Source of the DNA: Rhizobium sp. Root483D2
GTDB lineage: Bacteria > Pseudomonadota > Alphaproteobacteria > Rhizobiales > Rhizobiaceae
DNA: 64,000 bases
Direction: 5' to 3'
Assembly: GCF_001426685.1 (NCBI RefSeq)
Contig: NZ_LMFB01000013.1
Location: 18,478 to 82,477, forward strand
Position 1 is the first letter of the stretch; every line of letters starts with the position of its first letter. Made by a program: the position numbers and the translations under genes. This document shows positions 3,408 through 18,021 of this stretch, piece by piece. The notes beneath the pieces are model-generated. The model was not told where the DNA came from. It made no database searches and saw only the letters and a program-made list of their open reading frames with translations.

Positions 3408-4625
3408 TCAGCGGTGAGCGTTCAGCGAGATGACGTTGTGCAACGTATCATCGGCTGTCGACAGAAACTTCTTGAGGCTGCGGGCGGCCTGGCGAATCCG
3501 GTGCTCGTTTTCAACCAGCGCGATGCGGATATAGTCGTCGCCCTGCTCGCCGAAGCCGATGCCGGGCGCAACCGCGATATCGGCCTTTTCGACCAGAAGC
3601 TTGGAGAATTCCAGCGAACCGAGATGACGGAATTTTTCCGGGATCTTCGCCCAGGCAAACATTGTCGCGGCCGGTGGCGGCACATCCCACCCGGCCTTGC
3701 CGAAGCTTTCGACCAGCACGTCGCGGCGGCGCTTGTAGATATTGCGCACTTCCGCGATATCCGAGCCATCGCCGTTCAGCGCATGGGTTGCGGCCACCTG
3801 GATCGGCGTGAAGGCGCCGTAATCGAGATAGGACTTTACCCGTGTCAGCGCAGCGATCAGGCGCTCGTTGCCGACGGCAAAGCCCATGCGCCAGCCGGGC
3901 ATGGAGAATGTCTTCGACATCGAGGTGAACTCGACCGTGTTGTCCATCGCGCCTGGAACTTCCAGAACGGACGGCGGCAGAACGCCGTCGAAATAGATTT
4001 CCGAATAGGCCAGATCCGACAGGATGACGATGTCGTGCTTCTTCGCAAACGCAACGACTTCCTTGTAGAAATCCAGCGTTGCCACATGCGCCGTCGGGTT
4101 TGACGGATAGTTGATCACCAGCGCGATCGGCTTGGGGATCGAATGGCGGATCGCCCGCTCCAACGGCGGAAAGAACGTATCGTCCGGCTCGACCGAGATC
4201 GAGCGGATGACGCCGCCGGTCATCAGGAAGCCGAAAGCATGGATCGGGTAGGTCGGGTTCGGGCACAGGATCACGTCGCCAGGCGCGGTGATCGCCTGCG
4301 CCATGTTGGCAAAGCCTTCCTTGGAGCCGAGCGTCGCAACAACCTGGGTATCCGGGTTCAGCTTGACGCCGAAACGGCGGGCATAATAGGCAGCCTGCGC
4401 GCGGCGAAGGCCCGGAATGCCCTTGGAGGACGAATAGCGGTGGGTGCGCGGGTCCTGCACGACCTCGCACAATTTATCGACCACAGATTGCGGCGTCGGA
4501 AGATCCGGATTGCCCATGCCGAGATCGATGATATCAGCTCCACCCGCTCGCGCGCTGGCTTTCAAACGGTTGACCTGTTCGAAAACGTAAGGCGGCAGAC
4601 GCCGGACTTTGTGAAACTCTTCCAT
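3408..4625 (-). CDS. Class I/II aminotransferase (AlaC / LL-DAP aminotransferase-like)
   Basis: This is a PLP-dependent fold-type I aminotransferase of 405 residues. Visible features are the substrate-loop region around GMGNPDLPTP, the INYPSNPT motif and the PLP aspartate and tyrosine in ILSDLAYSEIYF. The Schiff-base lysine is in TSMSKTFSMPGWRMGF, and a C-terminal arginine lies in YIRIALVENEHRIRQA. The sequence resembles E. coli AlaC (glutamate-pyruvate aminotransferase); relatives are often annotated as LL-diaminopimelate aminotransferase. The ATG at 4625 follows a GAGG ribosome site. It is probably co-transcribed with hom. The fold is certain but the in vivo substrate is not. Confidence 0.85.
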   Translation of the reverse strand: MEEFHKVRRLPPYVFEQVNRLKASARAGGADIIDLGMGNPDLPTPQSVVDKLCEVVQDPRTHRYSSSKGIPGLRRAQAAYYARRFGVKLNPDTQVVATLGSKEGFANMAQAITAPGDVILCPNPTYPIHAFGFLMTGGVIRSISVEPDDTFFPPLERAIRHSIPKPIALVINYPSNPTAHVATLDFYKEVVAFAKKHDIVILSDLAYSEIYFDGVLPPSVLEVPGAMDNTVEFTSMSKTFSMPGWRMGFAVGNERLIAALTRVKSYLDYGAFTPIQVAATHALNGDGSDIAEVRNIYKRRRDVLVESFGKAGWDVPPPAATMFAWAKIPEKFRHLGSLEFSKLLVEKADIAVAPGIGFGEQGDDYIRIALVENEHRIRQAARSLKKFLSTADDTLHNVISLNAHR

Positions 4626-16169: not shown

Positions 16170-16441
16170 CGGCCGATCTCCTTGCATGCGCGTGTCGGCC
16201 AACACATATCATGGACAAGAGCATCGACAACCGGGCGGGCAGGTAATTCCCAATCGAATCAAGGCGACCTGCCCCGTTCAACCCGGAACCGGGACCTTTG
16301 AAGCGAGGTCAGGCATTGCCGCGAGGAAAGTTTCTGCAGAGCGGATCATCGTTAACGAAGCGTGAAGGTTTGCATGCGAGCATGGTGTTTAAGGACGTAC
16401 CGCCGAGGTCATGCGCAAGCTGCATATCATCCATGATGACA
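16170..16441. other. Intergenic region before the small-RNA locus
   Basis: About 270 bp lie between the divergent DUF2157 gene and the first putative promoter of the small-RNA locus. The DUF2157 promoter must be here. I see no other gene or hairpin. Confidence 0.4.
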
Positions 16442-16476
16442 TTGCACTGCACAAATTTCGGATGATTGCCTATATT
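16442..16476 (+). promoter_or_regulatory. Putative promoter upstream of the small-RNA locus
   Basis: CCTATATT (-10-like, CTATAT at 16470) is preceded by a CATTGCACTGCAC stretch about 25-30 bp upstream. The same CATTG to -10 spacing occurs before the first DUF1127 gene. A transcript from here would run through a short open frame starting at 16494 into the first RNA. Confidence 0.4.
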
Positions 16477-16597
16477 GAACTCAAGAAGACGGAATGAGAT
16501 CAGCGCAAGCGATCGGGGCCGTCAGCGGCAAGGCCAGCCGCTTCCGCTCAGAAGTGGAAAAGGCCGGCGGACCGGAAGGTTCGCCTTATAGAATTCG

Positions 16598-16713
16598 GAG
16601 TGGCGCACTCCTCCTCCCAGCGCCGCTCCGATCCGATGGGCAACACTCCTCCTCCCAGTTGCTCATCCCCTCAAATGACGCCCGCTGGATCTCCTCCCCC
16701 AGCGGGCGTTATT
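16598..16713 (+). ncRNA. Anti-Shine-Dalgarno small RNA, copy 1 (alpha-r14 / cuckoo-like)
   Basis: Three consecutive hairpins are visible. Hairpin 1 (16599-16627) has stem AGTGGCGC/GCGCCGCT. Hairpin 2 (16635-16667) has stem GATGGGCAAC/GTTGCTCATC with one G-U pair. Hairpin 3 (16678-16709) has stem ACGCCCGCTG/CAGCGGGCGT and a weak T-rich tail. Loops 1 and 2 are the identical ACTCCTCCTCCCA, and loop 3 holds CTCCTCCCC. Each loop is complementary to a ribosome-binding site. A -10-like CTTATAGAAT lies at about 16584-16593. The architecture matches what I remember of rhizobial alpha-r14 RNAs (NfeR1) and Rhodobacter CcsR 'cuckoo' RNAs, which act on mRNA start regions. Confidence 0.85.
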
Positions 16714-16825
16714 CGTTCCGGCCTTCCATGGAATCCGCCGTTCCCCTTGGCTGCACCTTATGTGCGCATTCGCTTAAAATTTGATCAGATGCGCCAGCAT
16801 AAAACTTGCAGCTATGCATTCGCCA

Positions 16826-16846
16826 CATGGGTGCCATTCAGCATTG
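16826..16846 (+). promoter_or_regulatory. Shared upstream box, small RNA 2
   Basis: CATGGGTGCCATTCAGCATT(G) occurs about 25 bp ahead of a -10-like CATTATCTTG and recurs almost unchanged before the first DUF1127 gene. It contains a T-N11-A pattern typical of LysR-type activator sites. CTTGCA is also shared 15-20 bp further upstream. The common box suggests co-activation; the regulator is not identifiable from sequence. Confidence 0.55.
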
Positions 16847-16885
16847 CCGCTACACATTCACGCCAGCCGGCATTATCTTGAATAC

Positions 16886-17015
16886 AGCTTCAGGGCAGCG
16901 CACTCCTCCTCCCAGCGCGCCCTGATGGGATCGGCAACACTCCTCCTCCCAGTTGTCGATCAGAACAAGCAACGCCCGTCGGACCTCCTCCCCTGACGGG
17001 CGTTGTCTTTTGTTT
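16886..17015 (+). ncRNA. Anti-Shine-Dalgarno small RNA, copy 2 (alpha-r14 / cuckoo-like)
   Basis: This is a second three-hairpin RNA 180 bp after the first. Hairpin 1 (16893-16922) pairs GGGC-A-GCGC with GCGCGCCC. Hairpin 2 (16929-16961) pairs GATCGGCAAC with GTTGTCGATC. Hairpin 3 (16971-17004) pairs AACGCCCGTC with GACGGGCGTT and ends in GTCTTTTGTTT, a good terminator. Loops 1 and 2 are again ACTCCTCCTCCCA, and loop 3 contains CCTCCTCCCC. Stems differ from copy 1 with compensating changes while loops are invariant, which argues for selected RNA structure. Its own promoter is probably the -10-like sequence at 16871-16880. Confidence 0.85.
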
Positions 17016-17115
17016 ATCCCCTTCAAAGCAAATCAGCTTTCCATAGTTAGCGCCTGCGCAAGCGCACCGAATTTGGCCAGATGGCGGGCATTTGAATTCC
17101 GAGGCTTGCAATCGG

Positions 17116-17137
17116 CGCATGGGTGCGATGCAGCATT
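17116..17137 (+). promoter_or_regulatory. Shared upstream box and promoter, first DUF1127 gene
   Basis: GCATGGGTGCGATGCAGCAT(TG) repeats the box before small RNA 2. A -10-like CTATAT follows at 17164-17169, 26 bp downstream. The embedded ATGCAGCAT is a near palindrome. The position relative to the -10 suggests an activator site overlapping -35. Confidence 0.55.
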
Positions 17138-17227
17138 GTCTCTGTAATTTTAGGGGTAAACCACCTATATTCCGACCATCAGATGAGGGCCAGCGAGGTG
17201 CTGGCAAACCTAGAAAGGACCAGCATC

Positions 17228-17371
17228 ATGAATATCGCTCGCTCGTTCAACAATTGGCGCAAGTACCGTCAGACCTGCAACGAACTCGGCCGCATGAGCG
17301 ACCGCGAACTGAACGACCTCGGCATCGGCCGTGGCGACATCCAGTACGTTGCCCGTCAGGCAGTCAAGTAA
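17228..17371 (+). CDS. DUF1127 micro-protein, copy 1
   Basis: The product has 47 residues and is rich in arginine. Its family pattern is a helix (NIARSFNNWRKYRQT), then the conserved core ELGRMSDRELNDLGIGRGDI near residues 19-38. An AGAAAGGA ribosome site precedes the ATG. The DUF1127 protein CcaF1 of Rhodobacter binds RNA and affects maturation of adjacent CUCCUCC RNAs. In Agrobacterium, short DUF1127 proteins influence phosphate and carbon metabolism. Its place right after two such RNAs suggests a similar partnership, which is inference here. A strong terminator follows. Confidence 0.9.
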   Translation: MNIARSFNNWRKYRQTCNELGRMSDRELNDLGIGRGDIQYVARQAVK

Positions 17372-17415
17372 GTCTCGCAGCCGGCCGGTTCCTTCGGCCA
17401 TATGCGCAGCGACCA

Positions 17416-17450
17416 AACGCCCTCCGGCTCAAACCGGCGGGCGTTTTTTT
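17416..17450 (+). terminator. Terminator of DUF1127 gene 1
   Basis: AACGCCC-t-CCGG pairs with CCGG-c-GGGCGTT around a 6 nt loop, followed by eight T's. The 75 bp between stop codon and terminator could also be released as a 3'-UTR RNA. Confidence 0.92.
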
Positions 17451-17877
17451 TCGTCCAGATTTTATTCGCAGGCTTTACCGGTTCGATGTTCAAGCCAACC
17501 CTGATGGCGGCGCAAATCAACCATAGCTTTCGACGCGGTGCAGCATCTGAATGCTGCCTATTTCCTTGGCAGTATCGTCTGCGTGACGCCTGGCGCCGCT
17601 CGCTTGCCCATATCCCTGCCCGGGCACAATTCCGCCACAAAAAACACACCAAAGAAACAGAGAGTTAAACGGAATTCGGCACCACCAACTCCAGCGTTAA
17701 CCGGTGGCTTCTTTTTCGGCATTCGCCCGAATTGCTCAGCGAAACAGCATCGCATTGCACAAACGCATAGCAGATGCATTTTCTTTGCACTCCATCTTTT
17801 CCCGCGCAAGGCGTACAAGGATGTCAACGAAGCAGGCAATCACTGCACTGCTCATTTGGTATCTCAAGGAAAAGATC
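17451..17877. other. Intergenic region between the two DUF1127 genes
   Basis: About 430 bp with no convincing coding frame. A CATTGCAC element (17753-17760) resembles the one in the other promoters of this locus, but no clear -10 follows at the same spacing. The second DUF1127 promoter should lie in the last 120 bp. Confidence 0.4.
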
Positions 17878-18021
17878 ATGAACCCGATTCGTATCGCAAA
17901 AAGCTGGATCAACTATCGCCGTACCGTTGCTGAACTTGGCAACCTGTCCAACCACGCCCTGACGGACATCGGCATCACCCGCTTCGACATCCGCAACATC
18001 GCTTCGCGTTCCTTCCGTTAA
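17878..18021 (+). CDS. DUF1127 micro-protein, copy 2
   Basis: A 47-residue paralogue of the gene at 17228, with the same length and pattern: RIAKSWINYRRTVAELGNLS, then LTDIGITRFDIRNIASRSFR. CAAGGAAA lies upstream of the ATG at 17878. It is basic and lacks a signal or membrane segment, so it should be cytosolic. It diverges enough from copy 1 (about half the residues) that the two are probably not recent duplicates. RNA binding is inferred from family work in Rhodobacter. Confidence 0.9.
   Translation: MNPIRIAKSWINYRRTVAELGNLSNHALTDIGITRFDIRNIASRSFR

Follow-up and report, generated by a model that had tools for sequence, protein, structure and literature searches.

Tandem RNAs of the ar14/NfeR1 family with anti-Shine-Dalgarno loops, located upstream of two DUF1127 genes in Rhizobium sp. 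Root483D2

The analysis of a 64-kb stretch of DNA from Rhizobium sp. Root483D2 (the window) revealed two neighbouring features, copy 1 and copy 2, which very probably encode tandem trans-acting sRNAs of the ar14/NfeR1 type that lower translation through anti-Shine-Dalgarno (anti-SD) loops. The present analysis itself showed the family match, the conserved loops and promoters, the covarying stems and the synteny; by analogy with published members of the family, both RNAs are probably made in this species and would silence their targets through these loops. Six hairpins with CUCCUCC loops span positions 16590-17008 of the plus strand, three per RNA gene, and the stems pair well in each copy despite their different sequences. 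The motif CTCCTCCC occurs six times in the window, always within the two RNA copies, while whole shuffled windows contained a mean of 2.0 (sd 1.3) and only one of 100 reached six; its occurrences in the third hairpins lie at 16691-16698 (copy 1) and 16985-16992 (copy 2). The 13-nt loop ACTCCTCCTCCCA was found four times on the plus strand (starting at 16607, 16645, 16902 and 16939) and not at all on the minus strand of the window. A 471-nt stretch folds at −189.4 kcal/mol, as against −133.5 (sd 6.5) in 100 shuffles, none of which was as good (z −8.5), and all six anti-SD loops are open in its minimum free energy (MFE) structure. These counts and the fold agree with an earlier note, made from the sequence alone, that described two tandem RNAs with six anti-SD hairpins, four of them sharing the 13-nt loop. 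The coordinates given there (16598-17015) were close to those of the Rfam matches (16590-16714 and 16885-17008), but left out two upstream stretches: 16412-16589, with the copy 1 leader and promoter, and 16815-16884, with the copy 2 promoter. Reading the raw sequence had found a real multi-loop regulator; the follow-up corrects its extent.

The Rfam covariance model RF02344 (ar14) matched both copies over its full length (positions 1-123 of 123), with 119.7 bits for copy 1 and 109.0 bits for copy 2, the gathering score being 58.8. In both, the anti-SD motif is unpaired in each of the three loops. None of 14 control genomes yielded an ar14 match. Both copies are members of the published ar14/NfeR1 (‘cuckoo’) family, which was already known; the alpha-r14/NfeR1 assignment, for which the earlier note had proposed an Rfam search, is upheld, both copies being above the gathering score. 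The kinship with cuckoo RNAs, also proposed there, holds too: SmelA075, SmelA099 and the cuckoo RNAs (PMC3927594) resemble the host RNAs in their CCUCCUCCC hairpin loops, variable stems and many copies per genome, and they include three- and four-hairpin forms, as in the present host, with nothing different in kind.

Covariation was assessed in 71 distinct copies, obtained by an exact-loop search of loci L001-L115 and the window, with pairing scored on a sequence alignment carrying the Rfam structure. Under this structure 95.6% of 2153 cells pair and 25 of the 31 stem pairs have changed on both sides. The covariation score was 0.366, compared with 0.179 for shuffles (none of 500 attained the real value) and no more than 0.102 with the structure slid. 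Mean entropy was lowest in loops (0.14 bits), intermediate in stems (0.65) and highest in linkers (1.28), the loop value being biased low because an exact-loop search picks copies with intact loops. Entropy and covariation are in keeping with the claim that the stems differ, that the structure is selected and that the loops are the constant part; missing stem covariation, which was to count against this claim, was looked for and is contradicted by the 25 pairs. The third loop was shortened in nine of 13 Rhizobium copies outside the 71-copy set, altered in one (L070) and without an anti-SD in three. At the copy 1 position, L066, L095 and L113 retain a third hairpin with a loop that lacks the anti-SD sequence.

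The gene order at the locus is tig, a tRNA gene, two further genes, the RNA pair, two DUF1127 genes and trmFO (the names tig and trmFO are taken from S. meliloti annotation). The host is a near relative of Pararhizobium and of the Rhizobium giardinii/herbae group. S. meliloti Ak57 (L115, in a record titled pSymB) has the same RNA pair at the corresponding site, where tig, the DUF1127 gene pair and trmFO are syntenic. For S. meliloti 1021, SmelC397 (NfeR1) has been mapped to 1667491-1667614 (124 nt) and SmelC398 to 1667766-1667982 (217 nt), both on the minus strand (PMC2873474). Copy 2 of Ak57, L115:3983-4106, has the same length as SmelC397 (124 nt). When SmelC397 is aligned with it, on the assumption that the spacing is the same in both strains, SmelC398 falls at L115:3615-3831, covering a leader and copy 1 (3706-3828). 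The promoter-derived start of Ak57 copy 1 is L115:3613, compared with 3615 by this spacing. As judged from Rfam match, fold and spacing, copy 2 (16885-17008, +) is assigned as the orthologue of NfeR1 and the body of copy 1 (16590-16714, +) as that of SmelC398. NfeR1 (also Smr14C2) and copy 2 are alike in locus, extent (124 nt), three anti-SD hairpins and distance to the LTTR box, this box having one mismatch in copy 2. SmelC398 (also sra38 or Sm7) matches leader plus copy 1 in position and extent, although its leader has 93 nt in S. meliloti, as against 109 nt in the host, and the sequences differ. No functional study of SmelC398, and no description of the copy 1 leader or its LsrB-type box, was found in the open-access papers searched; nothing on the NfeR1 locus was found in PMC2245857.

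In S. meliloti, LsrB is reported to activate NfeR1 through a TGCA-N6-GCAT box (−72 to −60), and NtrC to repress it through TGC-N11-GCA (−116 to −101) (PMC10746234). Of 27 copy 2 promoters, 12 contain the NtrC site without mismatch, but in the window copy none is recognisable (two mismatches, out of register). Since this feature of NfeR1 is described as restricted to plant symbionts (PMC10746234), its lack does not exclude the orthology of copy 2. The third hairpins had also been proposed to be terminators; published 3′ ends fit this by spacing, although a simple terminator scan listed neither copy, because its loop limit of 8 excludes loops of 10 nt.

Copy 2 would be made from a sigma70-type promoter, CTACAC-N17-TTATCT (16850-16878, +), which was read from the promoter alignment and was not listed by a generic sigma70 scan of 16300-17500, with an LsrB-type box upstream (TGCA-N6-ACAT, one mismatch; 16815-16828, +). 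Copy 1 would have its own promoter, also with an LsrB-type box (TGCG-N6-GCAT, one mismatch; 16412-16425, +). Its conserved block, CACTGCA-N17-CCTATA (16445-16474, +), lies some 110 nt upstream of the three-hairpin body, and the sole match of the sigma70 scan (16448-16476; 0.7 expected) is at this site. Among related, and so not independent, sequences, a candidate LsrB-type box with no more than one mismatch was present upstream of copy 1 in 32 of 33 (7.4% of shuffled sequences) and upstream of copy 2 in 22 of 27 (4.3% of shuffled). Those 22 boxes begin 69–72 nt upstream of the RNA, and that of the window 70 nt upstream. Fifteen Rhizobium loci without copy 2 were also checked: in 14 the RNA at the copy 1 position is preceded by such a box (one mismatch at most), which lies 126–140 nt upstream in 13 of them, while the exact promoter block is present in only four of the 15.

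Given its structured leader and a conserved promoter some 110 nt before the body, the RNA of copy 1 should extend from 16481 to 16714, about 234 nt, and not the 115–130 nt that had been expected for both transcripts. Copy 2 fits the shorter length; the S. meliloti counterpart of copy 1 was sequenced at 217 nt (PMC2873474). The leader (16481-16589, +; 109 nt, its predicted start good to a few nt) folds into hairpins. In 16 close sequences 96.3% of cells pair and covariation is 0.196, compared with 0.145 for shuffles (0 of 500 reach it); four of 25 pairs have changed on both sides, compared with 1.8 for shuffles (10 of 500 reach it). Further pair types in these sequences (15 vs 13.9) did not stand out from the shuffles, of which 99 in 500 reached that number. 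Support for the leader hairpins thus comes solely from the 16 close sequences, and not on every measure. The entire S. meliloti copy 1 transcript folds better than shuffles (z −4.0), the leader and the first hairpin intermixing in the MFE structure. Two candidates were rejected: a common leader fold across 29 relatives, for which RNAalifold gave only three weak pairs, and a protein encoded in the leader (ORF 16494-16784), because all 15 other aligned sequences have ACG or GCG in place of its ATG start. The second leader hairpin closes on GAAA-like loops in several relatives.

Each RNA displays three anti-SD copies in hairpin loops, which would pair with ribosome-binding sites, probably of many mRNAs, and so lower translation. 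In S. meliloti, NfeR1 is reported to silence ntrB and transporter mRNAs (PMC10746234), its three anti-SD motifs being redundant (PMC10746234, PMC7143759); mutation of all three abolishes ntrB silencing (PMC10746234). The Hfq co-purification that the earlier note had suggested as a check is at odds with the report that NfeR1 is Hfq-independent (PMC10746234). Pairing was tried with three start regions of the host, those of ntrB and two DUF1127 genes. The value for ntrB, −12.3 kcal/mol, is only moderate (6% of random 70-mers were as good), and those for DUF1127-A and DUF1127-B are poor (−4.5 and −4.9), making the two DUF1127 starts unlikely targets. AbcR1 and AbcR2 are, like the host pair, tandem sRNAs with anti-SD motifs, but they belong to the ar15 family, have two such motifs and bind Hfq (PMC7143759). 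LsrB/VtlR control has been reported for some AbcR RNAs, with conflicting reports in S. meliloti.

The proximity of the DUF1127 genes raises another reading, which adds to the ar14/NfeR1 explanation and does not replace it: the RNA pair and these genes might form one LsrB-controlled module, a rhizobial form of the DUF1127-CcsR ‘CIN1’ locus. The DUF1127 protein would then bind the anti-SD RNAs or take part in their maturation, as CcaF1 does with the CcsR RNAs of Rhodobacter. This is conceivable but rather doubtful. DUF1127-A (47 aa; 17228-17371, +) starts 220 bp after copy 2 and has an exact LsrB-type box upstream (17107-17120, +); DUF1127-B (47 aa) lies at 17878-18021 (+). The host genome (6.04 Mb, 44 contigs) contains five ar14 matches at four loci, two of which adjoin a DUF1127 gene, though there are only seven such genes in the genome. 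One of the paralogues, L003 on contig C9, has four anti-SD hairpins and begins some 175 bp beyond the stop codon of a further DUF1127 gene; exact LsrB-type boxes lie upstream of both this gene and this RNA. Further, a block common to the promoters of copy 2 and DUF1127-A was found, allowing two mismatches, at four places in 6.04 Mb, and at none with a reversed control. Two of them, copy 2 and DUF1127-A, are not evidence, because the pattern was drawn from them; the third is the C9 DUF1127 gene beside the four-hairpin copy, and the fourth, on contig C19, without a DUF1127 gene or ar14 match nearby, looks like chance. The arrangement of these sites suggests that anti-SD RNAs and DUF1127 proteins may be under common LsrB-type control. 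In Brucella, VtlR is reported to control AbcR2 and three DUF1127 genes (PMC12595884), and in Rhodobacter the RNA-binding protein CcaF1 is co-transcribed with CcsR RNAs (PMC10253847). Against the module, the host RNAs and DUF1127 genes have separate promoters, and the paralogues L004 (contig C5, four hairpins) and L005 (three) lack both a DUF1127 neighbour within about 1.5 kb and an LsrB-type box, as does DUF1127-B the box (two mismatches in the best match of each). DUF1127 proteins may also act on proteins, as on PhoR in Agrobacterium, and no sign of RNA binding is reported for Salmonella YjiS (PMC12501420).

The association of DUF1127 with CcsR-like RNAs is already in print as the CIN1 locus (PMC10253847). 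In Rhodobacter sphaeroides, CcsR1-4 and CcaF1 are, as in the host, anti-SD hairpin RNAs beside a DUF1127 gene; however, they form one operon with an RpoHI/HII promoter and RNase E cuts (PMC10253847), whereas the host RNAs lie upstream of the DUF1127 gene with conserved promoters of their own, and are not co-transcribed downstream of it. With the three- and four-hairpin forms and the function of NfeR1 also published, this is mostly a known system.

A wider proposal is similarly tentative. It takes copy 1 as a composite riboregulator in which the conserved leader hairpins serve as a further functional domain, and groups both RNAs with DUF1127-A in one LsrB regulon whose anti-SD module can change place. 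The last part derives from relatives. Syntenic loci numbered 81 (80 kept of 134 relatives found, plus L115), and those of the Rhizobium loci L062-L114 that are without copy 2 have one anti-SD hairpin in the 3′-UTR of DUF1127-A, before the terminator (for example L089:3762-3842, −). TCCTCCC was present in 47 of 81 DUF1127-A 3′-UTRs, and when 37 distinct ones were folded, CCTCCC was in an open loop in 36, with a mean z of −2.5 relative to motif-keeping shuffles; this count excludes duplicates, motif-free UTRs, L105 (different motif context) and L071, L084, L085 and L097 (motif in the terminator). No description of such a single hairpin in the DUF1127-A 3′-UTR was found in the open-access papers searched. 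It may, as part of the same tentative proposal, stand in for copy 2; if so, the DUF1127-A mRNA itself would yield the regulator.

Returning to the ar14/NfeR1 explanation, ar14 matches at E ≤ 0.001 were found in 45 of 61 genomes, the host's own included, and were above the cut-off in 37. A model built from the 71 copies, and so trained on some of the loci it scored, found a strong copy in 80 of the 81 syntenic loci, L099 being the exception; the pair is present in 29 (L035-L061, L101, L115). The exact-loop search found no triplet in the Rhizobium leguminosarum group, which had raised the idea that these RNAs were lost there; given the 80 strong copies found by the covariance model, the idea was discarded for the copy 1 position. 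In L036, copy 1 (L036:4351-4453, −) is without one hairpin, as by deletion between repeated loops.

That only copy 2 works as a regulator, copy 1 being a silent or redundant duplicate, is improbable. Only one of the six family copies of S. meliloti is reported to be reliably detected by Northern blot (PMC7143759), a report that also weighs against the main explanation and against the dosage tuning raised as a possibility in the earlier note, and the hairpin lost in L036 would also fit; the paralogue SmelA075 has been detected after a heat shift (PMC2873474). However, the copy 1 position is more widely kept than the pair, its LsrB-type box persists in 14 of the 15 Rhizobium loci mentioned above, and SmelC398 was sequenced in S. 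meliloti (PMC2873474). With this position, a structured leader and an LsrB-type promoter, SmelC398, the little-studied partner of NfeR1, deserves inclusion when NfeR1 is studied. Chance, or a DNA-level repeat without RNA function, would explain the near-identical loops, but is scarcely credible in view of the compensatory stem changes, the conserved promoters and the published transcripts at the orthologous S. meliloti site (PMC2873474). A further CTCCTCCC follows the last hairpin, 34–37 nt past the third loop, in L007, L014, L022, L044, L049, L058 and L059, some of these loci representing one and the same genome.
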